From: an uncultured Pseudoflavonifractor sp.
GTDB taxonomy: Bacteria > Bacillota > Clostridia > Oscillospirales > Oscillospiraceae
Assembly: GCF_944387805.1 (NCBI RefSeq)
Contig: NZ_CALXGI010000003.1
Location: forward strand, 1 to 64,000
DNA length: 64,000 bases
Reading direction: 5' to 3'
Positions 22,982 through 43,341 of the stretch are shown piece after piece. The notes below the pieces were generated by a model that ran no database searches, was not told the origin of the DNA, and saw only the letters and a program-made list of their open reading frames with translations. The position numbers were made by a program, and so were the translations under genes. The stretch's first letter is position 1, and each line of letters starts with the position of its first letter.

Positions 22982-23077
22982 CCACATGATTTTTCTATAA
23001 TACGGAGGGGTGAAACCGTAGAATTTTTTGTAGAGAATGACAAGCTCCACGAGAGCGGAATTAAGGAGTGGTACGTG

Positions 23078-24121
23078 ATGAAAGTTCTGCTGTTAGGCGA
23101 CCGGTTTATTACCAACGAGATTTGGAAAGAGGCGTTTGAAAAGCGCTTCGCGGACAGCGGCATGACCTTCGAATACGCCGCCCATCAGCTGCAGTGGCCC
23201 GTAGTTCCCATGGAGTCTAACGACGAGGTCGCTGAGTACTCAGGCACCGACGACGAGCTGCTGGACCTGGTGAAGGACGCCGAGATCATCCTGACCCACA
23301 CCGGCTGCATCACCAAGAAGGTGATTGACAACGCACCCAACCTGAAGGTCATCGCCCTGGGGCGCGGCGGTCCGGTGAACGTGAACACCGCCGCCTGCAC
23401 CGAGCGGAAAATCCCCGTCATCTACGCTCCTGGCCGCAACTCCGGCGCCGTGGCTGAGTTTGCCGTGGGACTCATCATGTCGGTCAGCCGCAACATCGCA
23501 TACAGCCACTACTGCCTGCGCTATCAGAACCAGTGGCGGGGCGATTTGTACGCCAACGAGCACGTAGGCAGCGAGTGCTCTTACAGCACGCTGGGCCTGG
23601 TGGGCTTCGGCGCCATCGGCAGCAAGGTGGCCAAGATTATGCACAACGGCTTTGGCAGCAAGGTGCTTATCTACGACCCCTATATCCCCGAGACGGTCCG
23701 GGCCCAGTATCCCGACTACGTATTCACCGATCTGGACACCGTTCTCTCCCAGAGCGACTATGTCTCCCTCCACACCAAGGTCACCAAGGAGACCACCGGC
23801 ATGATCAGCGCCGAGAAGATCGCCCTGATGAAGCCCGGCGCCATCCTCATCAATACCGCCCGTCCCCAGCTGGTGGACTATGACGCCCTGTATGCCGCGC
23901 TGAAGGAAGGCCGTCTGGGCGGCGCCGGCCTGGATGTGTTCGAAGATGAGCCTCCCAAGGCCACCTCCAAGCTCTACGAGCTGGAAAACGTCACTGCTAC
24001 GCCGCACCTGGGCGGCGCCTCCAAGCAGGCCGCTATCATCGGCGCCACCATCGCCTGCGATGAGGTGTACGGCTATATCAAGGAAGGCCGGATGCCCAAG
24101 TTCTGGTTCAACAAGTTCTGA
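23078..24121 (+). CDS. D-2-hydroxyacid dehydrogenase family protein
   Basis: A 347-residue NAD(P)-dependent dehydrogenase that interconverts a 2-hydroxyacid and a 2-oxoacid. The Rossmann signature GFGAIGSKVAK lies near residue 176. Catalytic residues fit the family: Arg in NTARPQLVD, Glu in FEDEPP and His in PHLGG. The substrate is unknown; its place at the head of a sugar-PTS/BMC block suggests a sugar-derived acid or a 3-phosphoglycerate-like compound. ATG 23078 is behind AAGGAG; GTG 23075 is also possible. The next gene follows after 49 bases. Confidence 0.85.
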   Translation: MKVLLLGDRFITNEIWKEAFEKRFADSGMTFEYAAHQLQWPVVPMESNDEVAEYSGTDDELLDLVKDAEIILTHTGCITKKVIDNAPNLKVIALGRGGPVNVNTAACTERKIPVIYAPGRNSGAVAEFAVGLIMSVSRNIAYSHYCLRYQNQWRGDLYANEHVGSECSYSTLGLVGFGAIGSKVAKIMHNGFGSKVLIYDPYIPETVRAQYPDYVFTDLDTVLSQSDYVSLHTKVTKETTGMISAEKIALMKPGAILINTARPQLVDYDALYAALKEGRLGGAGLDVFEDEPPKATSKLYELENVTATPHLGGASKQAAIIGATIACDEVYGYIKEGRMPKFWFNKF

Positions 24122-24170
24122 ATCGCTCAGGAAGTATCAGTACCGGACATATGTAAGGAGGAACTATATC

Positions 24171-24854
24171 ATGAGTCAGCTTACCGCCGCCCAGATCGCC
24201 GGGATGATGGACATCTCGCTGCTCCAGCCTCAGTTTACCCGGGACGATATTGACAAACTCATTGACCAGGCCATCAAGTACAAGATGGCGTCCGTCTGTG
24301 CCAAGGGCTACGACGTGGCCTACTGCGCCAAGCGCCTCCAGGGCACCGGCGTGAAGGTGGGCGGTTCCGCCGCATTCCCCCACGGCAACAGCACCACCAA
24401 GATGAAGGTGGCCGAGGCCCTGGCCAACATCGACGACGGCGCAGAAGAGCTGGATACCGTGCTCCCCATCGGCCTGGTCCGCTCGGGCATGTATGACTAC
24501 GCCAAGGCTGAGCTGGACGCCATTGTGGAGGCCTGCCATAAGCGCAACGTCATCGTGAAGGTCATCTTTGAGAACTATTACCTGACTCCGGAAGAGATCA
24601 TCAAGTGCTGCGAGATCTCCAACGCCGCCGGCGTGGACTTTGTCAAGACCTCCACCGGCTACGCGCCCAGCGGCGCCAAGCTGGAGGACGTGAAGCTGAT
24701 GCGGGCCCACACCGACCCCAAGATCCAGGTCAAGGCTGCCGGCGGCATCCGCACCCTGGAGGACTTCATGGCCTACTATGAGGCCGGCGTCACCCGTCAG
24801 GGCACCCGCGCCGCCGCCGAGATTGTGGACGAGGCGGTCCGCCGGGGCTGGTAA
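24171..24854 (+). CDS. DeoC-type aldolase, copy 1 (no targeting helix)
   Basis: A 227-residue class I aldolase related to deoxyribose-5-phosphate aldolase, which splits 2-deoxyribose 5-phosphate into glyceraldehyde 3-phosphate and acetaldehyde. The catalytic set is present: D95 in EELDTV, Schiff-base K159 in DFVKTSTGY and K188 in QVKAAGGIRT. The N-terminal motif is altered: DISLLQPQ replaces the usual DHTLLKP, so substrate preference may differ. Unlike the other two DeoC proteins here it starts directly with the barrel and should be cytosolic. AAGGAGG precedes the ATG. Confidence 0.82.
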   Translation: MSQLTAAQIAGMMDISLLQPQFTRDDIDKLIDQAIKYKMASVCAKGYDVAYCAKRLQGTGVKVGGSAAFPHGNSTTKMKVAEALANIDDGAEELDTVLPIGLVRSGMYDYAKAELDAIVEACHKRNVIVKVIFENYYLTPEEIIKCCEISNAAGVDFVKTSTGYAPSGAKLEDVKLMRAHTDPKIQVKAAGGIRTLEDFMAYYEAGVTRQGTRAAAEIVDEAVRRGW

Positions 24855-24929: not shown

Positions 24930-25976
24930 ATGAAGGCTCTTTATCTCACTGGCAAGGCTCAGGTGGAGATGCGCGATATCCCGGTGCCCGAGTGCCCGGA
25001 CGACGGTCTGCTCATCAAGATCGACTCTGTCGGCCTGTGCGGATCTGACGTGCGCACCTATTCTGTCGGTTCGGCCAAGATCAACTACCCTGTTATCCTG
25101 GGCCATGAGAACGCCGGCTATGTGGAGAAGGTGGGCAAGAATGTCACCGGCTGGAAGGTGGGCGACAAGGTGGTTGCCAACCCCGCCATCCCCTGCGGCA
25201 AGTGCTACTACTGCGTCAACAAGATGCCCGGCCTGTGCGACAACATCCAGGTGGCCGGCACCAGCTTCCCCGGCGGATTTGCCCAGTACATGGTGTTCCC
25301 CGGCGATATGCTCTCCCGCGGCCAGATCATCAAGGTGCCTGACGATGCCGACCTGGAGCCCATGATTCTGGCCGAACTGCTGGCCTCCGTGGTAAAAGCC
25401 CAGGACGACCTGAAGGTGGGCATGGGTGAGACCGTGGTCATCGTGGGCTCCGGCCCCATCGGCTGCCTCCACGCTCAGATTGCCAGGCTCCACGGCGCCA
25501 CCAAGATCATCATGGCCGAGCTGAACAAGGAGCGCCTGGACAAGTGCCATGAGTTCGGCGGCACCCACTTTATCGTCTCCTCCCAGGAGGATCTGGTACA
25601 GCGGGTCATGGAGATCACCGACGGCCGCGGCGCCGACGTGTGCATCGTCGCCTGCCCCTCCGCCAAGCCCCACCAGCAGGGCGTGGAGCTGCTGCGCAAG
25701 GAAGGCCGTCTGTGCCTGTTCGGCGGCCTGCCCAAGGATAACCCCTGGACCACTATGGACGGCAACCTCATCCACTATAAGCGCCTGCGCATCTTCGGCG
25801 CTTACTCCTACTCCGCCGCTGACTTTGCCAAGGGCTATGAGCTGCTGGCTGCCGGCCGTATCGATACCCGTATCATCACACACACGCTGCCTCTGGAGAA
25901 GATGCCCGAGGGCGTGCGCATGATCCAGCAGGGCGAAGCCATCAAGGTGGTTTTGAAGCCCTGGATGGAAGAATAA
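24930..25976 (+). CDS. zinc-dependent medium-chain alcohol/polyol dehydrogenase
   Basis: A 348-residue MDR dehydrogenase. The catalytic zinc set is visible in GLCGSD and GHENAG, the structural zinc set in CGKCYYCVNKMPGLC, and the cofactor loop in VVIVGSGPIGC. Similarity is to sorbitol and galactitol-1-phosphate dehydrogenases (GatD-like). With the galactitol-type PTS five genes on, oxidation of an imported alditol phosphate to a keto or aldehyde sugar phosphate is a fair guess. Start behind TAGGAGG. It lies in the operon between DeoC copy 1 and the UroD-like gene. Confidence 0.85.
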   Translation: MKALYLTGKAQVEMRDIPVPECPDDGLLIKIDSVGLCGSDVRTYSVGSAKINYPVILGHENAGYVEKVGKNVTGWKVGDKVVANPAIPCGKCYYCVNKMPGLCDNIQVAGTSFPGGFAQYMVFPGDMLSRGQIIKVPDDADLEPMILAELLASVVKAQDDLKVGMGETVVIVGSGPIGCLHAQIARLHGATKIIMAELNKERLDKCHEFGGTHFIVSSQEDLVQRVMEITDGRGADVCIVACPSAKPHQQGVELLRKEGRLCLFGGLPKDNPWTTMDGNLIHYKRLRIFGAYSYSAADFAKGYELLAAGRIDTRIITHTLPLEKMPEGVRMIQQGEAIKVVLKPWMEE

Positions 25977-25991: not shown

Positions 25992-27065
25992 GTGAGAAAG
26001 CCTGAAATGACCGGCCATGAGCGTATTGAGGCACTTTACAACAAGCAGCCTCAGGATCGCGTCCCCGTTGTACATAAGGGCTATGCCTTCTGCGCCAAGC
26101 ATGTGGGCATCCCCGTGGCCTCGGTCTACCGCGACCCCAAAGCCAGCTTTGAGTGCCAGAAAAAGACCTATGAGGACTTCGGCTTTGACGGCGGTCCCTT
26201 CTACACCTTCGTGGCCTACGGCGCCGGGGAGTTCGGCGGCAAAATCGAGTATAAGAAGGATGAGAACGCCTTTGGCCCCGAAGTCTCTGAGCGGCCCATC
26301 AAGGACTGGGAGGACTTTGATATCGACTCCCTCCAGCTGCCCGACGTAAAGACCGCCGGCTGCATTCCCCACGAGATGGAGTTCGCCAAGATGCAGGAGG
26401 CGGAGGGCAGCGAGATCGCCTTCATCTGCGGCACGCCCTTCACCCATGCCGCCAACCTGTTCGGCGTGCCCAGCTTCCTGGAGTGCGTGCTCATCGACCC
26501 CGACATGGCCCATGCCGCCCTGCGGAAGATGACCGACCACATTCTGCAGGTGGCCGAGTACTTCATCGGCACCTTCGGCCCCGGCCGGGTGCTGGCCCGC
26601 GCCGTGTCTCCCACTGAGTCCAACGCCCTCATCTCTCCCAAGATTCTGGAGGAGTTCTCCATGCCCTATGTAAAGGAGCTCAACTCCAAGGTGCTGGCGA
26701 TGGGTGCCAAGGCTGTGTATATGCACATGTGCGGCGACCACAACCTGAACCTGCCCTACTGGGCTGAGGTTCCCTTCCATCAGCCCGGCAAGCGGGGCAT
26801 GATCTCCATCGGTAAGGAGACCTCCCTGGAGGACGCGGCCAAGTACTTCCCCGAGTGTGCCATCTGCGGCAACCTGGACCCCGCCATCATCATGAACGGC
26901 ACCCCCGAAGAGGTCTACAAGACCAGCTGCGAGATTATCGAAAAGGGCAAGGCCCTGATGCCCGGCCGCTTCGAGTTCATGGCCGGCTGCGAGGTGGGTC
27001 CCGGCTCCCCGGAGGAGAACGTGGCCATGATGGTCAAAGCGGTCAACGACGTGGGCTGGTATTAA
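25992..27065 (+). CDS. uroporphyrinogen-decarboxylase/MtaA-like family protein
   Basis: A 357-residue UroD-fold barrel protein. It resembles the MtaA/CmuA methyltransferase branch rather than HemE. It has the zinc-type HMCGDH motif near residue 251 and a late GCEVGPGSPEEN near residue 337, the positions of the zinc ligands in corrinoid methyltransferases. No corrinoid-binding protein gene lies nearby, so its partner and reaction are unknown. It starts at GTG 25992 behind AAGGAGGG, 15 bases after the dehydrogenase, and precedes the PTS EIIA gene by 16 bases. A sugar-operon setting is unusual for this family. Confidence 0.8.
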   Translation: MRKPEMTGHERIEALYNKQPQDRVPVVHKGYAFCAKHVGIPVASVYRDPKASFECQKKTYEDFGFDGGPFYTFVAYGAGEFGGKIEYKKDENAFGPEVSERPIKDWEDFDIDSLQLPDVKTAGCIPHEMEFAKMQEAEGSEIAFICGTPFTHAANLFGVPSFLECVLIDPDMAHAALRKMTDHILQVAEYFIGTFGPGRVLARAVSPTESNALISPKILEEFSMPYVKELNSKVLAMGAKAVYMHMCGDHNLNLPYWAEVPFHQPGKRGMISIGKETSLEDAAKYFPECAICGNLDPAIIMNGTPEEVYKTSCEIIEKGKALMPGRFEFMAGCEVGPGSPEENVAMMVKAVNDVGWY

Positions 27066-27081: not shown

Positions 27082-27561
27082 ATGAGCGAGCTGAAAATGA
27101 GAACCAATGAGGACCTGATCCTCCTGCACCAGACCTTTGAAGATTCTGCTCAGGCTATCGATGCCCTGGCCAACCTGGCCAAGGCCCAGGGGCTGGTCAC
27201 CGACCTCTACATCGAGAAGATTCAGGAACGGGAGAAGGAGTTCCCCACCGGCCTGGAGATGCCCATTCCTCTAGCTATCCCTCATATTGCCGACGGCTGC
27301 AACGAGCCCTTTGTCTCCATTGCCACCATGGAGAAGCCTGTGATCTTCAAATCCATGGATCGCTCCGGAGATGACGTTTCGGTGCAGATCGTATTCCTCT
27401 TCGGCATCATTGACCCCAAGAGCCAGTTGGCAGTGCTGCGGAAGTTCGCCGCGGCGTTCTCTGACAAGGCTGCTGTCGAGAGCCTGCTGAAGGCAGAATC
27501 CAAGGCGGACCTGCTCAAAAAGCTGGACGGCATTCTGGAAGGCCTGCTGAACATTGGCTGA
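27082..27561 (+). CDS. PTS EIIA component (fructose/galactitol type)
   Basis: A 159-residue soluble phosphocarrier that passes phosphate from HPr to EIIB. The phospho-histidine is H68 in LAIPHIAD, in the standard PTS_EIIA type 2 surroundings (AIPLAIPH-like, then the FLFGI strand). Length is normal for a free-standing galactitol-type IIA. The ATG follows GAAGGAG. It is 74 bases upstream of EIIB and belongs to the same operon as the DeoC and dehydrogenase genes. Confidence 0.92.
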   Translation: MSELKMRTNEDLILLHQTFEDSAQAIDALANLAKAQGLVTDLYIEKIQEREKEFPTGLEMPIPLAIPHIADGCNEPFVSIATMEKPVIFKSMDRSGDDVSVQIVFLFGIIDPKSQLAVLRKFAAAFSDKAAVESLLKAESKADLLKKLDGILEGLLNIG

Positions 27562-27635
27562 CAGACGGGACTTCCGTTTCACAGCGCAAGAAAAAACAAA
27601 ACTGATCCCAATATGAAAAAAGGAGCGTGTATGGT

Positions 27636-27935
27636 ATGGCACGGACAGTTACAATCTGCGTTTGCTGCGGCGGCGGCATCTTCACCACTTCGGTGGTAAC
27701 GGAGGAGATCGAGAAACTGCTCAAGTCCAAGAAGATCTCCTACAAAATCGAGCCCCACAAGATCACAGAGATCCCCAACCTGGAGACCGACATCATCGTC
27801 GCCACCGGCAAGACGCAGGCGACCAACAAGAGCGGAGCTCCGGTCCTGATCGGCCTGCCCATGTTCACCGGCGTAGGCAAGGAGGAGTTCTCTCAGCTGC
27901 TGCTCAAGACCATTGCCGAGGTAGTGGGAGAGTAG
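27636..27935 (+). CDS. PTS EIIB component (galactitol type)
   Basis: A 99-residue cytosolic domain that phosphorylates the incoming sugar. The phospho-cysteine is C11 in ICVCCGGGIFTTS, which matches the loop of galactitol EIIB proteins, with an extra Cys just before it. The start is ATG 27636 behind AAAGGAG; the in-frame GTG at 27627 is too close to that site. EIIC follows after 72 bases. Confidence 0.9.
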   Translation: MARTVTICVCCGGGIFTTSVVTEEIEKLLKSKKISYKIEPHKITEIPNLETDIIVATGKTQATNKSGAPVLIGLPMFTGVGKEEFSQLLLKTIAEVVGE

Positions 27936-28007: not shown

Positions 28008-29471
28008 ATGGAATTCTTAGCGGTAATCGGACAAGCGGTAAAAAGCTTTATCGACATCTTCGGCGTTACCATCCTGGTCCCTATTGTAATCTTCATCCTT
28101 AGCCTTGCCCTGCGCGTGCCGGTGAAGAAAGCGTTTCGCGCCGCTATCTTCATGGCCATCGGCCTGACGGCCTTCAACCTGATTCTGAACACCCTCTGGG
28201 GACAGATGAATACCGTGATGGTGCTCATCTCCAACAACGTGGGCCGGACCTTCGACGTGGTGGATATCGGCTGGCCTGCCGCCGCTGCCATCGTGTACAG
28301 CAATGACCTGGGCATTTCCTACTTCATTGTGGGCCTGGTGTGGAACCTGATTCTGTTCTTCACCAAGGTCACGGATACCTTCCAGCCCACCGATATCTGG
28401 AACTACTACTACTTCGTCGTTTGGGGCATCATGGTCCAGTTCGTCACCGGCAGCTTCGTCATCGGTCTGCTGGCCTGCATGTTCATGAACCTGATTGTGC
28501 TCTTTATCGCCGACTTCCTGGCCCCCGCTCTCCAGGAGTACTACGGCTATGAGGGCCTGACCTGCACCTGCGTATGCGTTACCAACATTGCAATCCTGGC
28601 CGGTCTGATCCGCTGGCTCATCAATAAGCTGCACATTAAGGAAGTGCAGCTCAATCCTGAGAAGATTCAGGAGAAGCTGGGCTTCCTGGGCGAGCCCGCC
28701 ATGATCGGCATCATCATGGGCCTGATTATGGGCGTTGTAGCCTACTTCCCCGACCTGACCAACCCCTCCCTCATCGCCGAAACGCTGGGCCTGAAGATCT
28801 TCCCCTTCGCCCTGATGCTGGCCGCCATGCTGGTTATCTACCCCACCGTCTCCGGCATGTTCGTTAAGGGACTTATCCCTGTCAGCCAGAGCCTGAACGC
28901 CCGGGTGCGCAGCGGCAAGATTAACCGGAAGGCCTTCAACATCGGCATCGACCCCGCCGTCTACTTCGGCGAGACCGCTACCCTGACCACCGGCCTGCTG
29001 CTTATCCCCATTCTGATCATCACCGCCATTATCCTTCCCGGCAACCGTATCATCCCTGTGGCTGATATCCCTGCCATGCCCTTTATGGCCATCGGCGCCA
29101 TCGCCGTGTTTAAGGGCAACATTCTCAACGCCACCATCACCGGCACCATCTGGTACTCCATTGTCCACTACATCGCCACGGATACGGCTGCCCTCTTCAC
29201 CCAGATGGCAGAGAACGCCGGTCAGGCATTGCCCGAGGGTGCAACCTACATCACCTCCTGGTGTGTGTCCGCCATTCCTCCCTGCTATGTGGTCATGAAG
29301 GCCTTCTCTGCCCCCGGGGCCCTGAAGTTCATCCTGATGGCTGTCTGCGTGGTAGTTTACGTGCTGGCCCTGTGGCACTTCAAGACCCACCGCAAGGGCT
29401 GGTTCATGTTCTTCGGCGCCTCCGAGGAGTACACCGATCAGTACATGAACGTGGCGGCCCAGAACGCCTGA
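28008..29471 (+). CDS. PTS EIIC component, galactitol type
   Basis: A 487-residue sugar permease of the EIIC-Gat family, with about eleven or twelve hydrophobic segments. Marks of the family include WPAAAAIVYSNDLG near residue 90 and a central loop IKEVQLNPEKIQEKLG. It imports the substrate for phosphorylation by EIIB. The substrate cannot be read from sequence: galactitol, an arabinitol-like polyol or a deoxy-polyol are all possible. RBS GGGAGG. It is the last gene before the hairpin at 29600. Confidence 0.92.
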   Translation: MEFLAVIGQAVKSFIDIFGVTILVPIVIFILSLALRVPVKKAFRAAIFMAIGLTAFNLILNTLWGQMNTVMVLISNNVGRTFDVVDIGWPAAAAIVYSNDLGISYFIVGLVWNLILFFTKVTDTFQPTDIWNYYYFVVWGIMVQFVTGSFVIGLLACMFMNLIVLFIADFLAPALQEYYGYEGLTCTCVCVTNIAILAGLIRWLINKLHIKEVQLNPEKIQEKLGFLGEPAMIGIIMGLIMGVVAYFPDLTNPSLIAETLGLKIFPFALMLAAMLVIYPTVSGMFVKGLIPVSQSLNARVRSGKINRKAFNIGIDPAVYFGETATLTTGLLLIPILIITAIILPGNRIIPVADIPAMPFMAIGAIAVFKGNILNATITGTIWYSIVHYIATDTAALFTQMAENAGQALPEGATYITSWCVSAIPPCYVVMKAFSAPGALKFILMAVCVVVYVLALWHFKTHRKGWFMFFGASEEYTDQYMNVAAQNA

Positions 29472-29724: not shown

Positions 29725-30417
29725 ATGAACGCACTTGCTGTTAAGATGTACGACGCCATCCGCAAGGGGGAGTATAAGGAGAACGAGGTTATGCCCGACG
29801 TGGCCGCTCTGGTGGCGAAGTTCGGCGGCGACGAAAAGACTGTCCGGGAAGGCATTGGCGACCTGGTCTATGAGGGCGCCCTGGAGCGGGTCCCCGGCCA
29901 CGGCGACCAGGTCCGGGTCCGCAAGCCCTATCTGTGGGGGCTGGTGACCGGCAACCACAGCTTTACCGGCGAGGCCAAGAAGCGGGGCCAGAAGCCCGGC
30001 AACCGCATCCTCACCTTTGAGAAGCGTCCCGCATGGCCCCAGGTGGCCAAGCGCCTCCAGCTGGAGGAGGGGGAAGAGGTCAACGTGATGGAGCGTCTCC
30101 TCTTCGCTGATGACAAGGTGGTGGGCCTGGAGTTCTCCTACATGCCCTCCAAGTTCTATCCCGGCGTGGAGCGTGAGATGTTCGAGGGCGGCAAGTCCAC
30201 CTTCGCCGTCATGGAGAAGTTCGGCCACATCTCCGCCAAGGGCGTGGACGAGCTGGCCGTGGCCACCCTGGAGCCCCGTGAGGCCGAGCTGTTCGGCATG
30301 GATCCCGGTGTTCCCGTGCTCATCCGCTTCCGCGTCACCCTGAATCCCGAGGGCGTGCCCATCAAGGGCTCCCGCGCCATCTATCTCTTCAATCCCGGCT
30401 ACACGCTGGACATCTGA
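29725..30417 (+). CDS. GntR family regulator with UTRA ligand domain
   Basis: A 230-residue regulator. The N-terminal winged helix (about 5-68) reads AVKMYDAIRKGEY then VAALVAKFGGDEKTVREGIGDLVYEG. The C-terminal UTRA domain (about 85-228) includes VNVMERLLFADDKVVGLEFSY and the closing GSRAIYLFNPGYTLDI. UTRA domains bind sugar phosphates or similar small ligands, so this is the natural sensor for the product of the PTS. It has its own ribosome site (AAAGGGG) and stands between the PTS block and ptsI. Candidate ATATACA operators flank it. Confidence 0.9.
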   Translation: MNALAVKMYDAIRKGEYKENEVMPDVAALVAKFGGDEKTVREGIGDLVYEGALERVPGHGDQVRVRKPYLWGLVTGNHSFTGEAKKRGQKPGNRILTFEKRPAWPQVAKRLQLEEGEEVNVMERLLFADDKVVGLEFSYMPSKFYPGVEREMFEGGKSTFAVMEKFGHISAKGVDELAVATLEPREAELFGMDPGVPVLIRFRVTLNPEGVPIKGSRAIYLFNPGYTLDI

Positions 30418-30584: not shown

Positions 30585-32300
30585 ATGAGACTGGTAGGGA
30601 AACCCGTATCCAAAGGTGTTGTGATCGGAGAGGTCCTGCTCTATGAGCCCTTCAAAGCCACTCCGGTTGTGACTTACATCGAGAAAAGCAATGTGGAACA
30701 GGCGGTCCGGGCCTATGAGGAGACCCGGGCGCGGGCCAAGGCCGAGCTGGATGAGCTGGAAGCCCGCATGCTGGAGCGAGATCCGGACAAGGCGGCAATC
30801 ATCTATGCCCACCGGGAGATCCTGCTGGATCCGGCCATGGATGAGGAGATCCGCAACCTGATCCAGAATGACCTGATGAGCCCTGATGCGGCCATCGACC
30901 AGACATACAGCACCTACATTATGGTGCTGGGCAAGAGCAAGAACGAGATGATGCGTGAGCGGGCCTCCGACCTGCGGGACGTGAAGACCCGTCTGCTGCG
31001 CTGCTGGGCGGGGGAGAAGGAGCAGAACCTCTCCTCCCTGGAGAAGCCGGTCATCGTGGTGGCCGACGACCTCTATCCCTCGGACACCGTGTCCCTGGAC
31101 CGGGAGAACGTGCTGGGTATCGTCACCCAGGTGGGCGGCGCTACCTCCCACACCGCCATCATCGCCCGCAGCTATGAGATCCCCGCCGTGCTGGGCATCC
31201 CCAACGCCATGACCAAGCTGACCGCCGGTGAGCAGGTGGTGCTGGACGCGGTGACGGGCGAGGTGATCACCGGCTCCGGCGAAGAGGAGCTGGCGGCCTA
31301 CCGGGCCAAGGCGGAGAAGGTAAAAGCCGAACTGCTGGAGACCAAGACCTATTTGGCCACCGAGCCGGTCACCACCGACGGCCGCCACATCAGCGTCCGT
31401 CTGAACGTGGCTGCCGCCAATGACCATGAGCTCTCCGGCGCCGAGTACGCCGACGGCTGCGGCCTGTTCCGCACCGAGTTCCTCTATCTCAACGGCGACC
31501 ATCTTCCCACTGAGGATGAGCAGTACGAGACCTATAAGAAGGTGCTGGAGGCCTTCGGCGACAAGCCGGTGATTCTCCGCACCATGGATATCGGCGGCGA
31601 CAAGCAGCTGGACCGTCTGGAGCTGCCCAAGGAGGACAATCCCTTCCTGGGCATCCGCGGCCTGCGGCTGTCCCTGGTCCGGCCGGAGCTCTTCCGGGCC
31701 CAGATCCGGGCGGCTCTGCGCGCCTCCGTCCACGGCAACCTGCGCATCATGATGCCCATGGTGGGCGCCCTGGATGAAATCCGCAAGGCCAAGGCCTTCA
31801 TCGCCGAGCAGGGCGCCGCCCTGGACGCCGAGGGTATCCCCTGGAACCACGAGGTGCCGGTAGGCATTATGATTGAGGTGCCCTCCGTGGCCCTCATCGC
31901 CGACCTGGTGGCCGATGAGGTGGACTTTGTCAGCGTGGGCACCAACGACCTGACCCAGTACCTCTGCGCTGCCGACCGGATGAACCCGGCGGTAAAGCCC
32001 TACTATCAGGACTACCATCCCGGCGTGTTCCGCATGCTGGGCCACATCGCCAAGACCTTCGGCGCGGCCGGCAAGCCGGTGAGCGTCTGCGGCGAGCTGG
32101 GCGGCGATACGCTGGCCATCCCCGTACTGGTGGGTCTGGGCATTGACAAGCTCTCCATGGGTCTTGCCTCCATGGCGGCGGCCAAGCGGGTCATCCGCGG
32201 GCTGAACATGGATGAGGCCAGAGCCCTGGCGGAAGAGGTCAAGAACATGAAGACGGAGACGGAGATCCGCGCCCGTCTGGAGGCCTTCGCGGCCCGATAA
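30585..32300 (+). CDS. ptsI: PTS enzyme I (phosphoenolpyruvate-protein phosphotransferase)
   Basis: A 571-residue enzyme I that takes phosphate from PEP and hands it to HPr. The phospho-histidine is H189 in GGATSHTAII, the same number as in E. coli. The PEP-binding part has GCGLFRTEFLY, MDIGGDKQLDR, VGIMIEVPS and SVGTNDLTQY, and the catalytic Cys is in SVCGELGGD. The protein is complete. The gene sits with its own HPr gene inside a BMC/PTS locus, so it may be a second, dedicated copy; whether the genome has another ptsHI is not visible here. Confidence 0.96.
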   Translation: MRLVGKPVSKGVVIGEVLLYEPFKATPVVTYIEKSNVEQAVRAYEETRARAKAELDELEARMLERDPDKAAIIYAHREILLDPAMDEEIRNLIQNDLMSPDAAIDQTYSTYIMVLGKSKNEMMRERASDLRDVKTRLLRCWAGEKEQNLSSLEKPVIVVADDLYPSDTVSLDRENVLGIVTQVGGATSHTAIIARSYEIPAVLGIPNAMTKLTAGEQVVLDAVTGEVITGSGEEELAAYRAKAEKVKAELLETKTYLATEPVTTDGRHISVRLNVAAANDHELSGAEYADGCGLFRTEFLYLNGDHLPTEDEQYETYKKVLEAFGDKPVILRTMDIGGDKQLDRLELPKEDNPFLGIRGLRLSLVRPELFRAQIRAALRASVHGNLRIMMPMVGALDEIRKAKAFIAEQGAALDAEGIPWNHEVPVGIMIEVPSVALIADLVADEVDFVSVGTNDLTQYLCAADRMNPAVKPYYQDYHPGVFRMLGHIAKTFGAAGKPVSVCGELGGDTLAIPVLVGLGIDKLSMGLASMAAAKRVIRGLNMDEARALAEEVKNMKTETEIRARLEAFAAR

Positions 32301-32317: not shown

Positions 32318-32584
32318 ATGTATTCCAAGCAGATTAAGATCCAGAACAAGACCGGTCTTCACGCCCGCCCTGCCTCCGAGTTTGTCAGCCAGGCGGGTAA
32401 GTTCAAGTCCAAGATCGAGCTCCAGCGCGTAGGCGAGGAGGACAAGTACAACGCCAAGTCCATCATCATGCTGCTCTCTCTGGGCCTGGCCCAGGGCGAA
32501 GAGGCCGTGCTCTACGCCGACGGCGAGGATGAGAAGGAGGCCGTCGAGACTCTGGCCGATCTCATCGCCAGCTTCAAGGAGTAA
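32318..32584 (+). CDS. ptsH: HPr phosphocarrier protein
   Basis: An 88-residue HPr. H15 in TGLHARPAS is the PEP-dependent phospho-site. The regulatory serine region NAKSIIMLLSLG is present, but Ser is residue 48 instead of 46 because of a short insertion around GEEDKYN. If HPr kinase recognises it, it could also take part in CcpA signalling. It starts 17 bases after ptsI and is co-transcribed. Confidence 0.95.
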   Translation: MYSKQIKIQNKTGLHARPASEFVSQAGKFKSKIELQRVGEEDKYNAKSIIMLLSLGLAQGEEAVLYADGEDEKEAVETLADLIASFKE

Positions 32585-32683: not shown

Positions 32684-32709
32684 AGCTGCTGAGAAAGCGA
32701 GGGTTGCCT

Positions 32710-33345
32710 ATGACCCGGGAAGAGATTAAGCGGCAGGTCACCAAGGACACCCTGCTCTCCGCCCGGAAGAACACGGGCCGGGGATTTGTCCCCGTGGGGA
32801 TCTCCAACCGGCATGTCCACCTGACCCAGGCGGCAGTGGAGGCCCTCTTTGGTCCCGGCCACCAGCTCACCCCCATGAAGGCCCTGTCCCAGCCGGGACA
32901 GTTCGCCTGCGAGGAGAAGGTGATGGTGGAGGGCCCCAAGGGAAAGCTGAGCGGTCTCCGGGTCCTGGGCCCTGTCCGGAAGGACACCCAGGTGGAGCTG
33001 TCGGTGACCGACGCCTTCGCGGCGGGCATCAAGCCGGTGGTGCGCATGTCAGGAGACATCGCGGGCACACCGGGCTGCCGCCTGACGGGCCCCTGCGGGA
33101 GCCTGGAGCTGAAGGAGGGCGTCATCGTGGCCGCAAGGCACCTCCACATCTCCCCCGAACAGGCCGCGGTCTACGGCCTCAAGAGCGGCGACCAGGTCCG
33201 GCTGAGAAGCGAGGGACCCAGGGCCGTGGTGTTTGAGCATGTGGCGGTCCGGTCCGGGACAGGACACGACCTGGAGGTCCACATCGATTTTGACGAGGCC
33301 AACTGCGCCCAGATGAGAAACGGCGATCTGCTGGAGATCATCTGA
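32710..33345 (+). CDS. pduL: BMC phosphotransacylase PduL
   Basis: A 211-residue acyl-CoA:phosphate acyltransferase of the PduL type, which in BMCs makes acyl phosphate and recycles CoA. Both halves of the family are seen: VGISNRHVHLTQ near residue 28 and ARHLHISPEQAAVYGL near 140, which carry the zinc-binding histidines. The N-terminus TREEIKRQVTKDTLL forms an amphipathic helix, a typical encapsulation peptide. ATG 32710 follows GAGGG; the TTG at 32704 is less likely. It opens the shell and cargo operon. Confidence 0.92.
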   Translation: MTREEIKRQVTKDTLLSARKNTGRGFVPVGISNRHVHLTQAAVEALFGPGHQLTPMKALSQPGQFACEEKVMVEGPKGKLSGLRVLGPVRKDTQVELSVTDAFAAGIKPVVRMSGDIAGTPGCRLTGPCGSLELKEGVIVAARHLHISPEQAAVYGLKSGDQVRLRSEGPRAVVFEHVAVRSGTGHDLEVHIDFDEANCAQMRNGDLLEII

Positions 33346-33377
33346 GCGAGGCGGCTGTGCCGAAAGGGGGCGATGGA

Positions 33378-34061
33378 TTGGACAGTCTGGAACGGCAGGC
33401 ACTGATTGCGCGGATTACGGCGGAGGTGTGCAGAGCGGTGGACGCCGCTCAGGCGGCGAAGCCCGAGGCGCCGGACACACTGGCCATCATATCCGCGCCG
33501 CTGGCCCTGCCGGACAGAATTTTCAAGCAGGTGCGGGAGACCTTCGGCGGCAATGTACGCTATCTCCTCTTTGGAGACCATCTCCACTACGAGCAGGTCC
33601 CTGCGGTGCAGGGGACGCCCGAGGGAGAGCAGGACTACATTGAGGAGGCCGCCGGTGTGGAGACCGTGCTGCTCCTCTCGCCCCGCACCTCCACCCTCAG
33701 CCGTCTGGCAAAAGGGGAGGATGAGGGGCTGCTGGAGGACCTGGTGCTCCGCACCCTCCTGTGGGGGAAGGACGTACACATCTGGCTGGATTTCCAGCCT
33801 ATGCGGTTCAAACGAAACACATTTTTCGAAAAGGTGCTGGACGCCATCGAGGCGCTGGAGGATATGGGCGTCACCGTCACAGCCTTTGACTGGACGGCGG
33901 AGCTGGGAAGCAAACCCCTCCTGACGCTGGTCACCGAGCGGGACATGATGGACGCCGGACAGGCGGGCGCGCAGGAGCTGCGCTGTGCCTCCAACGCCAT
34001 TATCACCCCCTCGGCCCTGGACAAGGCCGCGGAGCTGAATATCCGAATCGTCCGTGTTTAG
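33378..34061 (+). CDS. BMC-locus protein of unknown function with a targeting-like helix
   Basis: A 227-residue protein I cannot assign. The N-terminus MDSLERQALIARITAEVCRA would form an amphipathic helix like BMC encapsulation peptides. It then continues in a Rossmann-like alternating pattern (LAIISAPLAL, VRYLLFGDHL, VETVLLLSPRTS, KDVHIWLDFQPM). The C-terminus has CASNAIITPSALDKA. A flavoprotein-like fold is possible but unproven. TTG 33378 is preferred because AAAGGGGG lies seven bases upstream; GTG 33357 is the alternative. It sits between pduL and the first BMC-P gene, so a role inside the shell is likely. Confidence 0.6.
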   Translation: MDSLERQALIARITAEVCRAVDAAQAAKPEAPDTLAIISAPLALPDRIFKQVRETFGGNVRYLLFGDHLHYEQVPAVQGTPEGEQDYIEEAAGVETVLLLSPRTSTLSRLAKGEDEGLLEDLVLRTLLWGKDVHIWLDFQPMRFKRNTFFEKVLDAIEALEDMGVTVTAFDWTAELGSKPLLTLVTERDMMDAGQAGAQELRCASNAIITPSALDKAAELNIRIVRV

Positions 34062-34078
34062 CAGATGGGAGGATTGAC

Positions 34079-34375
34079 ATGCAGATCGCGAGAGTCAAGG
34101 GAACAGTGGTCAGCACCAACAAAGCGGAAAAGCTGATGGGACTGAAGCTCCTGGTGGTCAAGCCCATTGACCTGGAGACCATGGAGGAGAAGGGAAGCCC
34201 CATCGTGGTGGTGGACGCAGTGGGCGCCGGTGAAGGCGAAGTGGTCATGCTGGTGGGAGGCAGCTCCTCCCGTCAGACCGCAGCCACGGAGAACAAGCCG
34301 GTGGATCAGTCCATTGTGGCCATCATCGACCACATCGATATCGACAACAAGCGGGTATTCCAGAAGTTTCAGTAA
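34079..34375 (+). CDS. BMC-P shell vertex protein (EutN/CcmL family), copy 1
   Basis: A 98-residue pentamer-forming shell protein that caps BMC vertices. The family start MQIARVKGTVVSTNKAEKL, the middle PIVVVDAVGAGEGEVVMLVGGSSS and the closing SIVAIIDHIDI match EutN/CcmL. RBS GGGAGGA. It lies 17 bases after the unknown cargo-like gene and 52 bases before the aldehyde dehydrogenase gene. Confidence 0.93.
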   Translation: MQIARVKGTVVSTNKAEKLMGLKLLVVKPIDLETMEEKGSPIVVVDAVGAGEGEVVMLVGGSSSRQTAATENKPVDQSIVAIIDHIDIDNKRVFQKFQ

Positions 34376-34427
34376 GCAGCAGTTCAGTCCCAACTAAAAC
34401 TGCCGACAGCAGAGAGGTAGTGAGAAC

Positions 34428-35831
34428 GTGCTCAACAGAAGCGAGATCGAGCGAATTGCCCGGGAGACTGCGGCGGAGCTGGCAGGGGGCGGCGGATGTA
34501 CGCCTGCTTCCGGCTGCTGGATGTGCGATACTGCCGAGGAGGCCATCGCCAACGCGAAAGCGTCCCAGCAGAGGCTCCATGCCATGGGTCTGGAAGAGCG
34601 GGGACGGTTTATCGCCGCCATGCGCGCCGCGGCCCTGAAAAACGCTGAGTACCTGGCTGAGCTGGCCCACAGCGAGACCAAGTACGGCAGCGTGGCCCAC
34701 AAGATCCTGAAAAACCAGCTGGCCGCCAACAAGACCCCCGGCATTGAGGACCTGGTGACCCAGGCCTTCAGCGGGGACGACGGCCTGACCATCGTGGAGG
34801 GCGCCCCCTGGGGGGTCATCGGCTCCATCACCCCCTCCACCAACCCCACGGCGACCATCATCAACAACTCCATCAGCATGATCGCCGCCGGCAATGCCGT
34901 GGTGTTCAACCCCCACCCGGCAGCCAAGCACGCCTCCCAGGAGGCTATGCGTATCCTCAATGAGGCCATTGTGGAGGCAGGCGGCCCGCCCGCCCTCATC
35001 GCTACCGTGAAGGTGCCCACCCTGCAGACCGGCGAGGCCATCATGGCCTCCAAGGACATCCGGCTGCTCTCCATCACCGGCGGCGAGGCGGTTGTGGCCG
35101 CGGCCATGAAGTACCCCAAGCGGGTGGTGGCCGCCGGACCTGGCAACCCGCCCGTCATTGTGGATGACACCGTGGACATCCCCTATGCGGCCAAGACCAT
35201 TGTGGACGGCGCCAGCTTTGACAACAACGTCCTCTGCGTGGCGGAAAAAGAGGTGTTCGCCTTTGAGAACATCGCCGACGCGCTGATGAACGAGATGGTC
35301 CAGCGCTGCGGCGCCTGGCGGATCTCCGGCGCCGACATCGACAAGGTGGTGCGCACCGTGCTGCTGGAGAAGGACGGCAAGCACGTCATCAACCGGAAGT
35401 TCGTGGGCCGGGACGCCACCTACATCCTTCAGGAGAGCGGCGTGTCCTACCAGGGCAATCCCCGGCTGGTCATCGCCGAGGTGGACAAGTACCATCCCTT
35501 TGTCATGGTGGAGATGCTGATGCCCGTCCTGGGCATTGTCCGGGTGAAGGACATCGACGAGGCTGTGGCCGAGGCGGTGCGGGCTGAGCGGGGCTGCCAC
35601 CATTCCGCCATGATTCACTCCACCAACATCAAGCACATGACCCAGGCGGCAGCCGCCCTGGACACCACTATTTTCGTCAAGAACGCCCCGTCCTACTCCG
35701 GCCTGGGCTTCGGCGGCCAGGGCTTCGCCACCCTGACCATCGCTACCCCCACCGGTGAAGGACTCACCAGCGCCCGCACCTTTACCCGTGCCCGCCGCTG
35801 CGTGCTCAAGGGCGATCTCCGGATTATCTGA
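34428..35831 (+). CDS. CoA-acylating aldehyde dehydrogenase (PduP/EutE-like)
   Basis: A 467-residue enzyme converting acetaldehyde or a similar aldehyde plus CoA and NAD+ into acyl-CoA. The catalytic cysteine is C270 in FDNNVLCVAEKEV. Other family marks are GSITPSTNP, GNAVVFNPHPAAK and RVVAAGPGNPP. The N-terminal helix SEIERIARETAAELAG followed by a Gly/Cys-rich linker is an encapsulation peptide. GTG start behind AGAGAGG. It should be the core enzyme that uses the acetaldehyde released by the DeoC aldolases. Confidence 0.95.
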   Translation: MLNRSEIERIARETAAELAGGGGCTPASGCWMCDTAEEAIANAKASQQRLHAMGLEERGRFIAAMRAAALKNAEYLAELAHSETKYGSVAHKILKNQLAANKTPGIEDLVTQAFSGDDGLTIVEGAPWGVIGSITPSTNPTATIINNSISMIAAGNAVVFNPHPAAKHASQEAMRILNEAIVEAGGPPALIATVKVPTLQTGEAIMASKDIRLLSITGGEAVVAAAMKYPKRVVAAGPGNPPVIVDDTVDIPYAAKTIVDGASFDNNVLCVAEKEVFAFENIADALMNEMVQRCGAWRISGADIDKVVRTVLLEKDGKHVINRKFVGRDATYILQESGVSYQGNPRLVIAEVDKYHPFVMVEMLMPVLGIVRVKDIDEAVAEAVRAERGCHHSAMIHSTNIKHMTQAAAALDTTIFVKNAPSYSGLGFGGQGFATLTIATPTGEGLTSARTFTRARRCVLKGDLRII

Positions 35832-35835
35832 GCCT

Positions 35836-37143
35836 ATGGATAAGTTAGCAATGATTAGAGACGCAGGCGTGGTAGGCGCCGGCGGCGCCGGATTTCCCAC
35901 CCATGTGAAGCTGGACTGCCAGGCGGAGTTCGTCATCGCCAACGGCGCGGAGTGCGAGCCGCTGCTGCGGGTGGACCAGCAGGTCATGGAGTTTGAAGCC
36001 CGGGATGTGGTAGAGGGACTGCGGATTGAGATGGAGCTGGTGGGCGCCAAGGAGGGGATTATCTTCCTCAAGGAGCACTATACCGGCGCCATCCGGGCCC
36101 TGCGGGACGTGCTCAGGCACGAGAAGAAGATCCGGCTCCACATTGTGGACAGCTTCTATCCCGCCGGCGACGAGCAGCAGATCATCTATGAGGTCACCCA
36201 CCGGGTGGTTCCGCCGGGCGGACTGCCCAAGGACGTGGGCTGTGTGGTCAACAATGTGAGCACCCTGGTCAACGTGGCCAAGGCGGTCCGGGGTGAGCCG
36301 GTGACCGACAAGTACGTCACCGTGGGCGGGGCGGTCAAGGCCCCCTGCACCATCCGGGTGCCCATCGGCACCCCCCTCTCTGCGCTGGTGGAGTACGCCG
36401 GCGGCCCTCTGGAGGAGGACAGCGTGCTCATCGTGGGCGGACCCTGCATGGGCGCCGTAACAGAGAACTGGGAGCAGAGCGTTACCAAGACCACCGGCGG
36501 CGTACTGGTGATTCCCCGCAATCATCCTCTTCTGGAGCGGAAAAACCCGGAAATCAATCTGAAGGTGATGCAGTCGGTGTGCTGCCAGTGCACCATGTGC
36601 ACCCAGATGTGCCCCCGGCACGCCCTGGGGCTGGGGACCAGTCCCCACAAGGCCATGCGGGCGGTGGCCTGCGGCGCCGATCTGGTGGGCGACGTGGCCG
36701 GCATCCTCTCCTGCTGCGACTGCGGACTTTGTACTTACTACGCCTGCAACTTCGGCCTGAAGCCCTCTCACATCATGAAGATGCTCAAGGGTAGCCTGAT
36801 GCAGAAGGGCCTGCGGGCCAACCGGGACCGGATGGGCGAGCCGGACCGGTATATTGCAGATAAACGCCTTCCCACCGGGCGGCTTATTGCCCGGCTGGGC
36901 ATCGAGGAATACGATGTGCCCGCCCCCATGGAGACAGGGCTGCTGCCCTGTTCTCTGGTGCGGATTCCTACTAAGATGCATACAGGAGCTCCGGGGCGGC
37001 CGGTGGTCAAGCCGGGCGATCGGGTCATCCGGGGCCAGCTGATTCTGGATCTGCCGGAAAAGGGCTTGGGCGCAAAAATCCACGCCAGTATTGACGGTAC
37101 CGTGACCGAGGTCACTCAGGCCTATGTGGAGGTGAGAGCATGA
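35836..37143 (+). CDS. PduS-like RnfC-type iron-sulfur flavoprotein
   Basis: A 435-residue electron-transfer protein of the PduS/RnfC family, which oxidises NADH. An N-terminal GVVGAGGAGFPTH loop, a central SLBB-like part (YVTVGGAVKAPCTIRV) and two 4Fe-4S sites are visible: C-x2-C-x2-C-x3-CP in CCQCTMCTQMCP and a second set in CCDCGLCTYYAC. In the Pdu system it supports cobalamin reduction and contacts PduT. No B12 enzyme is seen in this locus, so cofactor or electron recycling is more likely. The gene ends in ATGA overlap with the BMC-T gene. Confidence 0.9.
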   Translation: MDKLAMIRDAGVVGAGGAGFPTHVKLDCQAEFVIANGAECEPLLRVDQQVMEFEARDVVEGLRIEMELVGAKEGIIFLKEHYTGAIRALRDVLRHEKKIRLHIVDSFYPAGDEQQIIYEVTHRVVPPGGLPKDVGCVVNNVSTLVNVAKAVRGEPVTDKYVTVGGAVKAPCTIRVPIGTPLSALVEYAGGPLEEDSVLIVGGPCMGAVTENWEQSVTKTTGGVLVIPRNHPLLERKNPEINLKVMQSVCCQCTMCTQMCPRHALGLGTSPHKAMRAVACGADLVGDVAGILSCCDCGLCTYYACNFGLKPSHIMKMLKGSLMQKGLRANRDRMGEPDRYIADKRLPTGRLIARLGIEEYDVPAPMETGLLPCSLVRIPTKMHTGAPGRPVVKPGDRVIRGQLILDLPEKGLGAKIHASIDGTVTEVTQAYVEVRA

Positions 37144-37688
37144 GGACAGCGTTAGGAGCCATTGAAGTACAGAGCATCCCCAAGGGCATTGAGGCGGGGG
37201 ACGCCATGCTCAAGGCGGCCCATGTGGAGCTCATCTCCGCCGGTACGGTCTGCGCCGGAAAGTACGTGGTGGTGGTGGCCGGCGAGGTGGACGCAGTCAA
37301 CGCCAGCGTTCAGGCCGGAACCGCCACGGCGGGCGGCAAGCTCATCGACAGCCTGCTCATCCCCCGCATCCATCCCCAGGTTCCCAAGGCCATCAACGCC
37401 TGCACCGATGTGGGCAGCGTCCAGGCCGTGGGTACCATGGAGCTCTTCTCTGTCTGCGCTGCCATCCAGGCGGCCGACACAGCTGTCAAGGCGGCCACCG
37501 TGGACCTGATTGAGGTCCGGCTGGGCCGGGGCCTGGGCGGAAAATCCTTTGTGGTACTCACCGGCGACGTGGCTTCGGTCCGCTCTGCCGTGGAGGCCGG
37601 GCGTACTGCCGCCCGGGAGAAGGGCCTGGTGTCCGACTGCACCGTGGTTCCCTCTCCCCACCCCGATCTGGTCAAAGCGCTGCTGTAA
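37140..37688 (+). CDS. BMC-T shell protein, PduT-like
   Basis: A 182-residue protein with two tandem BMC domains (about 3-85 and 95-180) forming a pseudohexameric trimer. It is PduT-like: the start LGAIEVQSIPKGIEAGDAML and a cysteine at position 38 in GTVCAGKY, the residue that holds a 4Fe-4S cluster in the PduT pore. A redox pore next to the PduS-like protein encoded by the overlapping gene is therefore plausible. Start at the ATGA overlap. Confidence 0.93.
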   Translation: MRTALGAIEVQSIPKGIEAGDAMLKAAHVELISAGTVCAGKYVVVVAGEVDAVNASVQAGTATAGGKLIDSLLIPRIHPQVPKAINACTDVGSVQAVGTMELFSVCAAIQAADTAVKAATVDLIEVRLGRGLGGKSFVVLTGDVASVRSAVEAGRTAAREKGLVSDCTVVPSPHPDLVKALL

Positions 37689-37736
37689 TACGGATTGCCC
37701 ATAAAAACCAAGGACACTGACAGGAGGCACATAATT

Positions 37737-38048
37737 ATGAAGCTTGCGTTAGGTATGGTAGAGACCCGGGGCCTGGTTGGCTCCATCGAGGCGGCCGACG
37801 CCATGGTGAAGGCTGCCGACGTGCATCTCATTGGCAAGGAGCGCATCGGGTCCGGCCTGGTGACCGTCATGGTCCGCGGCGATGTGGGCGCGGTGAAGGC
37901 CGCCGTCGAGGCGGGCGCTGCCGCTGCCAAGCGGGTGGGCGACCTGTACGGCACCCATGTCATTCCCAGCCCTCACGACGATGTGGAGACGATTCTTCCC
38001 GGCTATGAGAAGCCCGCCGCCAAGAAGGCCCCCGCGGCCAAGGCGTAA
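37737..38048 (+). CDS. BMC-H shell protein, PduA-like, copy 1
   Basis: A 103-residue hexameric shell protein. [10 protein letters not shown], the pore loop GSG in [11 protein letters not shown] and [11 protein letters not shown] are typical of PduA/EutM. It has a Lys/Ala-rich tail ([12 protein letters not shown]) that the second BMC-H lacks. ATG 37737 follows CAGGAGG. Nine differences separate it from copy 2 over about 85 aligned residues. Confidence 0.95.
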
Positions 38049-38053
38049 GACCG

Positions 38054-38320
38054 ATGTATACCGGCGAGGTGATCGGCTCGGTGGTGGCCACTGTGAAGGA
38101 GGAGCACCTGGAGGGAATTCCCCTGCTGGTGGTTCAGGTCATCGAGAACGGAAAGCGAACCAAAAAGGTGATCGCGGCGGACGCCACCCGCCAGGCGGGC
38201 CACGGGGACTTTGTCTACCTCATCGGCTCCAAGGAGGCCGCCCGGATGTTCCGCAAAAAGCTCACCCCGGCGGACGCGGCCATTGTGGGCTTTATTGACT
38301 CCTATCGGGAAGAGCTGTAG
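38054..38320 (+). CDS. BMC-P shell vertex protein (EutN/CcmL family), copy 2
   Basis: An 88-residue vertex protein. It starts MYTGEVIGSVVATVKEEHL, with GIPLLVVQVIENG and the closing AAIVGFIDSY of the family. It begins five bases after the BMC-H stop, with the upstream gene's end probably supplying the ribosome site by coupling. It is more basic than copies 1 and 3. Confidence 0.92.
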   Translation: MYTGEVIGSVVATVKEEHLEGIPLLVVQVIENGKRTKKVIAADATRQAGHGDFVYLIGSKEAARMFRKKLTPADAAIVGFIDSYREEL

Positions 38321-38404
38321 CACAATTCCATTCCCCGGCGGCAGGGCCGCCGGCACAAAAAGACTACCATCGAAAAATTAATGATAAAATGGAGGAATTA
38401 AGTT

Positions 38405-38680
38405 ATGGAGAGACAGGCTTTGGGTATGGTTGAGACCAGAGGTTTGATCGGCGCGATTGAGGCTGCGGATTCCATGGTGAAGGCCGCCAACGTCCACCTG
38501 GTGGGCAAGGAGCAGATTGGGTCCGGCTTGGTGACCGTTATGGTCCGCGGCGACGTGGGCGCCGTGAAGGCCGCCGTCGAGGCCGGCGCCGCCGCTGCCA
38601 AGCGGGTGGGCGACCTGTACGGCGTGCATGTCATCCCCTCTCCCCACGGCGATGTGGAGGCCATTCTGCCCCAGGCGTAA
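38405..38680 (+). CDS. BMC-H shell protein, PduA-like, copy 2
   Basis: A 91-residue hexameric shell protein nearly matching PduA in length and sequence, with pore loop GSG in [11 protein letters not shown]. It is a recent-looking paralogue of copy 1, without the Lys/Ala tail. RBS GGAGG. Two versions allow mixed hexamers or different facets. Confidence 0.95.
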
Positions 38681-38796
38681 CCAATCTGCGGGTCGTCTCC
38701 CTGCGTGCCGTCCGGACGCGCGGGGAGACGCCTGCCCTGTTGGGGCGGCATTCCGTCCCTGTGCCGTGAATACTCCAGGAAAGGGAGGTGCCTGCC

Positions 38797-39111
38797 ATGA
38801 GATTGGCGCGGGTCGTGGGGAATGTGGTCTCCACCATCAAGGACGAGGGCTATAAGGGCCAGAAGCTGATGATTGTGGAGTATCTCAACGAGCATGGCCA
38901 GCCTGAGGGCGCGCGGCAGATTGCCTTTGACTGCGCCGACGCCGGTGTGGGTGACATTGTCATTGTGAATACCGACGGCGGTGCGGCGAACATGTTCCTT
39001 GGCAAGCAGTGCATCGCCGACATTACCATCTGCGGCGTGGTGGACTACTGCACTTTCAATGGGGAGAATATCATGGGACACACAGTGCCGGCCCCTTCAA
39101 GAAAGGACTAA
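38797..39111 (+). CDS. BMC-P shell vertex protein (EutN/CcmL family), copy 3
   Basis: A 104-residue vertex protein. It starts MRLARVVGNVVSTIKDEGY, with QKLMIVEYLNEHG and CGVVDYCTFNGE. It has several cysteines, unlike copies 1 and 2. RBS AGGGAGGTG; ATG 38797 is preferred over the TTG/GTG-type starts upstream. It ends three bases before the DeoC copy 2 gene. Confidence 0.9.
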   Translation: MRLARVVGNVVSTIKDEGYKGQKLMIVEYLNEHGQPEGARQIAFDCADAGVGDIVIVNTDGGAANMFLGKQCIADITICGVVDYCTFNGENIMGHTVPAPSRKD

Positions 39112-39114
39112 GCC

Positions 39115-39897: not shown

Positions 39898-39951
39898 AGC
39901 ACTTGACGCTCACCGCGGCGGAGGCCCCGCCGCACCAGGAAAGGAATGAAT

Positions 39952-43319: not shown

Positions 43320-43341
43320 CCAGAGAAAGGCGGGGGAGCAA

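Follow-up and report, generated by a model that had tools for sequence, protein, structure and literature searches.

The window analysed here is a 64,000-nucleotide stretch of a contig from an uncultured Pseudoflavonifractor sp., and at 25992-27065 of its plus strand lies an open reading frame of 357 aa with a GTG start codon. A ribosome site of the GGAGG type is found 5' of the frame, and its codon composition is of the coding type (GC at codon positions of 0.59/0.39/0.85). The encoded protein scores 143.1 bits on the Pfam URO-D family (PF01208; gathering cut-off 23.9), and the frame is a genuine gene of the UroD/MtaA superfamily. Zinc enzymes with the UroD fold are chiefly known for corrinoid methyl transfer, and the fold is otherwise that of an enzyme of heme synthesis. 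The nearest NCBIfam model is the MtaA/CmuA methyltransferase (TIGR01463), at 106.4 bits and below its cut-off of 235.4, while the models of MtaA (NF040654) and MtbA (NF041608) give 62.5 and 61.1 bits against equivalog cut-offs of 400 and 600, respectively. A HemE (uroporphyrinogen decarboxylase) function is ruled out by score, with 31 bits on TIGR01464 against a cut-off of 303.

Searching the PDB by sequence, we obtained matches to CdmB, MtaA (4ay7) and a plant UroD, the best phmmer match being CdmB 9rui. In an AlphaFold2 model (mean pLDDT 77.6, pTM 0.81; alignment input of 5 sequences), the top Foldseek match is MtaA 4ay7 (E 2.2e-15, TM 0.77/0.82), whereas VIA-align places MtaA (Z 28) in a tie with UroD entries at Z 27-28; MetE barrels come next, at Z about 15-17. 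The protein aligns with MtaA 4ay7 across residues 7-351, with H245-M-C247 (26724-26732) opposite the HIC motif and C333 (26988-26990) opposite the late Cys, positions which we take to be the zinc-binding residues of MtaA. These predicted zinc ligands, which are the H-x-C and late C residues of the TIGR01463 group (here HMCG and C333), are invariant in the 8 members of the subfamily described below, and among 18 remote relatives H245 is kept in 17 and C247 and C333 in all 18. A preliminary description of this DNA had proposed a UroD/MtaA-like protein that retains the HxC and late Cys positions, and had suggested a structural comparison with MtaA; the Pfam score, the fold match and the alignment agree with it on each point.

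With MtaA, the methylcobamide:CoM methyltransferase of Methanosarcina mazei (4ay7/4ay8), the window protein thus has in common the whole-chain fold, the HxC and the late Cys, but it is only ~21% identical, falls below the MtaA, MtbA and MtaA/CmuA model cut-offs, and is encoded in a phosphotransferase (PTS) operon rather than in a methyl-transfer locus. According to a published account (PMC13222342), the UroD superfamily also includes the methyltransferase I proteins MtvB, OdmB, VdmB, MtoB and CdmB, with known methyl-ether or methyl-halide substrates, which work with a corrinoid protein that was sought at most 5 genes from the homologue. The loci of the window protein and its close relatives are, in contrast, without a corrinoid gene in 8/8 cases, and the zinc-ligand pattern is kept, unlike in CdmB, reported in that account to be without zinc (PMC13222342).

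The UroD-like gene is embedded in a plus-strand cluster with the order 2-hydroxyacid dehydrogenase, DeoC, zinc dehydrogenase, UroD-like gene, EIIA, EIIB, EIIC, GntR-UTRA regulator, enzyme I and HPr, followed by microcompartment genes, and the intergenic gaps between 23075 and 29471 range from 15 to 75 bases. The D-2-hydroxyacid dehydrogenase (23075-24121) is PGDH/GhrB-like (Pfam 2-Hacid_dh_C, 186 bits). DeoC1 (24168-24854), a class I aldolase of the deoxyribose-phosphate-aldolase (DERA) type, scores 210 bits on TIGR00126 (cut-off 117), matches DERA entries of the PDB down to E 2e-49 and has both active-site Lys and the Asp aligned; we take this Lys/Lys/Asp set to be the active-site residues of DERA. 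The zinc-dependent MDR dehydrogenase (24930-25976; ADH_N and ADH_zinc_N) is of the polyol/sugar-phosphate type, with its best NCBIfam scores on Tdh and IolM and a match to the galactitol-1-phosphate dehydrogenase model, all below cut-off. The UroD-like gene starts 15 bases after the end of this dehydrogenase and EIIA begins 16 bases after the UroD-like gene, so the order polyol dehydrogenase, UroD-like gene, EIIA had been read correctly from the outset. The PTS itself comprises EIIA (27082-27561; EIIA-2 family, PF00359, 98 bits), a galactitol-like EIIB (27627-27935; NF007643, 37 bits, below the cut-off of 95) and an EIIC of the GAT family (28008-29471; PF03611, 210 bits, above cut-off). The GntR-UTRA regulator (29725-30417; Pfam) is 74-78% identical to those of the Synergistaceae loci, and the cluster has its own enzyme I (30585-32300; PEP-utilizers domains) and HPr (32318-32584; PF00381), as do the loci L005, L008 and L049.

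We take the PTS of the atlABCD operon of Bacillus methanolicus to be of the GAT family. This operon, which serves D-arabitol, combines PTS polyol uptake with a polyol-phosphate dehydrogenase (PMC6685057), and so does the window operon. The latter differs from such GAT-PTS polyol operons by the addition of DeoC, the UroD-like gene and the 2-hydroxyacid dehydrogenase, and its EIIC reaches 264 of the 542 bits required by the galactitol (GatC) model TIGR00827.

Downstream, the microcompartment genes occupy 32704-40812 of the plus strand (PduL, three EutN, aldehyde dehydrogenase, PduS-like, BMC-T, two BMC-H and two more DeoC-family aldolases), and are followed by a PocR-domain regulator, a glycerol-1-phosphate-dehydrogenase-like protein (42135-43319, plus strand; NF002022, 148 bits, below the cut-off of 413) and a YajC-family protein (43270-43668). 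The latter marks the cluster end, as it does in the Synergistaceae loci L005, L006, L007 and L008. The two aldolases, at 39115-39897 and 39946-40812 (both PF01791), adjoin the shell genes and bring the window to three different DeoC proteins; their N-terminal extensions look like encapsulation peptides. In the published accounts of SPU microcompartments, a DeoC-type aldolase, an aldehyde dehydrogenase and PduL stand beside the shell genes, as they do here, where the DeoC-type aldolase in the BMC locus by which the SPU type is recognised is represented by two PF01791 proteins; however, RpiB (PF02502), one of the two enzymes given there as common to SPU loci, did not show up in a Pfam scan of 27 window proteins (PMC4207490, PMC8217296). 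Further downstream, between 45381 and 63337, models of CbiF, CbiG, CbiE/T, CbiB, CobQ, CbiK, CbiM and CbiL are matched by a cobalamin operon.

We surveyed relatives of the UroD-like protein using one pattern scan of genome contigs together with genome samples of 60, 398, 345, 185 and 4, partly overlapping. Close relatives, at 54-73% identity, are rare: 7 were found, in 5 Synergistaceae genomes and 2 genomes of Pseudoflavonifractor's own phylum, giving a subfamily of at least 8 with the window. The contig scan contributed 4, all in Synergistaceae MAGs (70-73% identity), and the Synergistota sample, where 5/185 genomes have a relative, added a fifth genome to these. The relatives from the own phylum are those of G212 (55% identity) and, within the own order, G664 (54%; 2/345 genomes of the order are positive, including the window genome). 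No close relative of the protein was found in the 59 other genomes of the near-relative sample (1/60, the window genome itself).

The gene order is conserved throughout these loci, two of which lie on short contigs (L029, 8.3 kb; L050, 10.7 kb). EIIA is directly downstream and the MDR dehydrogenase directly upstream of the UroD-like gene in 8/8 loci, DeoC, EIIB and EIIC are likewise in the cluster in 8/8, and the 2-hydroxyacid dehydrogenase is present in 7/8, the contig of the eighth (L050) ending at DeoC. Identities to the window proteins in the 5 Synergistaceae loci are 68-71% for the 2-hydroxyacid dehydrogenase (56% in L029) and 77-79% for the MDR dehydrogenase (62% in L050, 31% in L029); EIIB orthologues, placed between EIIA and EIIC in the other loci, are 47-81% identical. 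The DeoC proteins of the Synergistaceae are closer to DeoC3, the BMC aldolase of the window (46-49%), than to DeoC1, and those of L029 and L050 are of the DeoC1 type (55% and 60%, respectively). In four Synergistaceae loci (L005, L006, L007 and L049), the UroD cluster includes a homologue of the glycerol-1-phosphate-dehydrogenase-like protein (49-57% identity). Behind its UroD cluster, L050 carries a split transketolase, consistent with a ketose phosphate as product.

The preliminary description had proposed such a survey, asking whether the subfamily lies mostly away from PTS or BMC genes, which would make the link accidental. With EIIA directly downstream in 8/8 loci, the subfamily does not lie away from the PTS, and only the PTS link holds: BMC-type genes had no match in the 7 other UroD/PTS loci and are adjacent in the window genome only (1/8). 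Association with the PTS is general, that with the BMC is local, and we dropped the microcompartment as a general feature of the clade. The neighbouring cobalamin operon, because of which a cobamide link had been called possible but unproven, is real, but it was not seen among the genes read in the other annotated loci; this adjacency says little about the UroD-like enzyme, and we made no use of it.

The 8 PTS-linked proteins fall into a single group (94/96) in a tree built from 26 rows of the UroD family. The sister group of these 8 (94/92) consists of five rows from loci without corrinoid genes together with proteins of G378 and G365. Three G365 proteins fall into the sister group, and their two 20-kb stretches encode two corrinoid proteins, an HGD-D protein, Peripla_BP_4 and BPD_transp_2 parts of ABC transporters and a PfkB kinase. 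More broadly, the two G365 loci (L036 and L037) hold, within 40 kb, several UroD-type proteins along with corrinoid proteins, HGD-D dehydratase-like proteins, sugar-type ABC importers and a PfkB kinase. Note that the fragment L042 10136-10870 was left out of the alignment and tree, and that the UroD of contig C36 of the window genome is absent from the 18 remote rows as it lies below the E 1e-6 threshold. Several polar residues are invariant in the 8 PTS-linked proteins and occur in at most 1/18 remote rows (Y16, H28, Y31, C34, C146, H152, N155, H183, R203, Y243, E317, R326 and W356), and position 29 is K or R in all 8. Judging the pocket from sequence alone, we infer that the PTS-linked clade may combine the old zinc site with an altered substrate pocket, one that would suit an anionic substrate, for instance the product of a PTS.

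The EIIC has relatives at 40-47% identity in five other genomes (398 sampled), and the UroD-like gene is absent from their loci. In four of the five (G185, G215, G167 and G241), a RuBisCO-like protein, as read from the translations, is encoded near EIIC; the one in L070 reaches 365 of the 409 bits that the MtnW model requires. These four loci (L069, L070, L071 and L073, from G215, G185, G167 and G241, respectively) are GAT-type PTS operons adjoining the RuBisCO-like gene (MtnW-like in L070); 3/4 have their own enzyme I and HPr, 2/4 have a 2-hydroxyacid dehydrogenase and a class II aldolase, and GlpA-like or FGGY kinase genes are variably present. The PTS family of this EIIC seems to serve several unusual catabolic modules.

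Scanning the window frames of at least 100 aa with a corrinoid-protein HMM (E 1e-8) gave no match, in line with the earlier remark that the locus has no corrinoid-binding gene. By HMM, a corrinoid-protein gene shares the locus with the PTS-linked UroD in 0/8 cases and with remote UroD relatives in 5/13 loci (4/11 genomes). Corrinoid proteins are nevertheless encoded at other sites in each of the 8 carrier genomes. Apart from one of MetH size, the window genome has three such proteins, of which contig C9 carries a pair and contig C7 the third. The C9 pair belongs to a separate corrinoid methyl-transfer cluster (L041 9303-15613), together with an MttB-type methyltransferase, a transporter-like gene and a UroD. 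The C7 protein (L074 9554-10198) is 61% identical to corrinoid proteins of the carrier Synergistaceae, and no UroD- or MttB-type methyltransferase was found in the 20 kb around it; it is a candidate for a partner acting in trans.

Counting by eye from the tables, three or more PF02607 matches are present in 5/297 genomes of the order, the window genome included, and in 20/183 Synergistota genomes, among them 5/5 carriers (Fisher 1e-5, relatedness ignored); G212 has 13. The Synergistota carriers are close relatives, and this enrichment may represent one event; the corrinoid richness of carriers may likewise reflect lifestyle and shared ancestry, 5/8 carriers being close relatives. We also looked for a corrinoid protein shared between the window genome and the Synergistaceae at the level of the operon, whose genes from the 2-hydroxyacid dehydrogenase to HPr are 57-81% identical. 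The best match was the 61% one, and the one locus checked behind such matches, in a carrier Synergistaceae genome, is a methanol locus holding MtaB. The search thus gave no dedicated partner, and it seems that none of the corrinoid proteins travelled with the operon.

Our leading explanation, held tentatively and with somewhat less than even confidence, is that the UroD-like protein works as a zinc methyltransferase, stripping the methyl group from a methylated polyol or sugar phosphate brought in by the PTS, with a corrinoid carrier in trans. In the order of steps that we propose, a polyol or sugar carrying an O- or S-methyl group would first be imported and phosphorylated by the GAT-type PTS; the UroD-like enzyme would hold the anionic product through the clade-specific H28, K/R29, R203 and H152; the methyl group would be taken off at the predicted zinc site of the enzyme and passed to a corrinoid protein whose gene lies elsewhere in the genome; and the freed polyol or sugar phosphate would be oxidised by the adjacent zinc dehydrogenase before cleavage of the product by the DeoC-type aldolase. 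This demethylation is supported by MtaA as the best fold match, by MtaA/CmuA as the nearest model and by the zinc-ligand residues kept in 8/8 proteins, as well as by the operon fixed in 8/8 loci, the partly corrinoid-linked sister clade and the corrinoid-rich carriers. It is weakened by the missed MtaA, MtbA and MtaA/CmuA cut-offs, by the corrinoid gene present in 0/8 PTS-UroD loci against 5/13 remote ones, and by the DERA-type aldolase and 2-hydroxyacid dehydrogenase, which demethylation leaves unexplained. A role on a methylated substrate is compatible with the MtaA-like zinc site, the carriers and the sister clade, and unproven. A literature search of titles and abstract openings revealed no recognised precedent for a methylated-sugar route or a UroD-PTS operon; the one paper with 'uroporphyrinogen decarboxylase' and 'galactitol' together has them in separate Listeria gene lists, with no link. 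As substrate, we weighed arabitol, O-methyl polyols, 2-deoxy sugars and methylthio sugars, none of which is favoured by the evidence.

The main rival, which we consider possible but rather doubtful, dispenses with methyl transfer: the zinc would provide the Lewis acid for a lyase, dehydratase, decarboxylase or isomerase reaction of the PTS product, yielding a 2-deoxy or keto sugar phosphate for cleavage by DeoC. DERA requires a 2-deoxyaldose phosphate as substrate, which argues for such a supply, and so do the linkage to DeoC, dehydrogenase and EIIABC fixed in 8/8 loci, the corrinoid protein found in 0/8 and the clade-specific polar residues missing from remote relatives. The related EIICs (40-47%) that adjoin a RuBisCO-like protein instead point the same way, as this PTS family does seem to recruit enzymes of unusual carbon chemistry. 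However, the protein retains every residue with which MtaA binds zinc for thiol alkylation, the carrier genomes are corrinoid-rich, and we know of no precedent for a zinc-type UroD fold performing lyase, dehydratase, decarboxylase or isomerase chemistry on sugar phosphates.

The absent corrinoid gene would also be accounted for if the methyl of the sugar phosphate went at the zinc site straight to a thiol or folate, as MetE moves a methyl without a carrier (PMC539065). MetE barrels are indeed structural neighbours of the model (Z about 15-17), but MetE works in the reverse direction, from methyl-folate to thiol, and in fold the protein matches MtaA far better, making this route improbable. It is slightly more improbable still that the enzyme runs in the direction of MtaA, from a methylated corrinoid to a thiol, its place in the PTS operon reflecting shared regulation only: MtaA is the closest fold and one carrier Synergistaceae genome has an MtaB methanol locus, yet the linkage is kept across two phyla, Synergistota and Pseudoflavonifractor's own, and the pocket residues are unlike those of remote relatives. 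That the gene is an accidental or vestigial neighbour, unconnected with the PTS pathway, might be suggested by the unconserved adjoining BMC (1/8), but is nearly excluded because the core gene order is the same in 8/8 loci at 54-73% identity and the zinc-ligand residues are all kept.

Taking demethylation and new zinc chemistry on sugar phosphates together, we see about an even chance that the operon encodes either a new anaerobic route for sugar or polyol methyl-ethers or that new chemistry, joining PTS import, a UroD-fold zinc enzyme and DERA-type cleavage, here with an adjacent microcompartment possibly taking the aldehyde. A zinc methyltransferase-like gene fixed in a sugar-PTS operon of distant bacteria suggests an undescribed use of a methylated sugar or sugar alcohol, and this clade, found in Synergistaceae and in another phylum, has a substrate and a reaction still to be assigned. 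The UroD/PTS gene set is a small operon, directly testable under either reading: if demethylation holds, it would reveal an anaerobic use of methylated carbohydrates, and if not, a new chemistry for the UroD fold.
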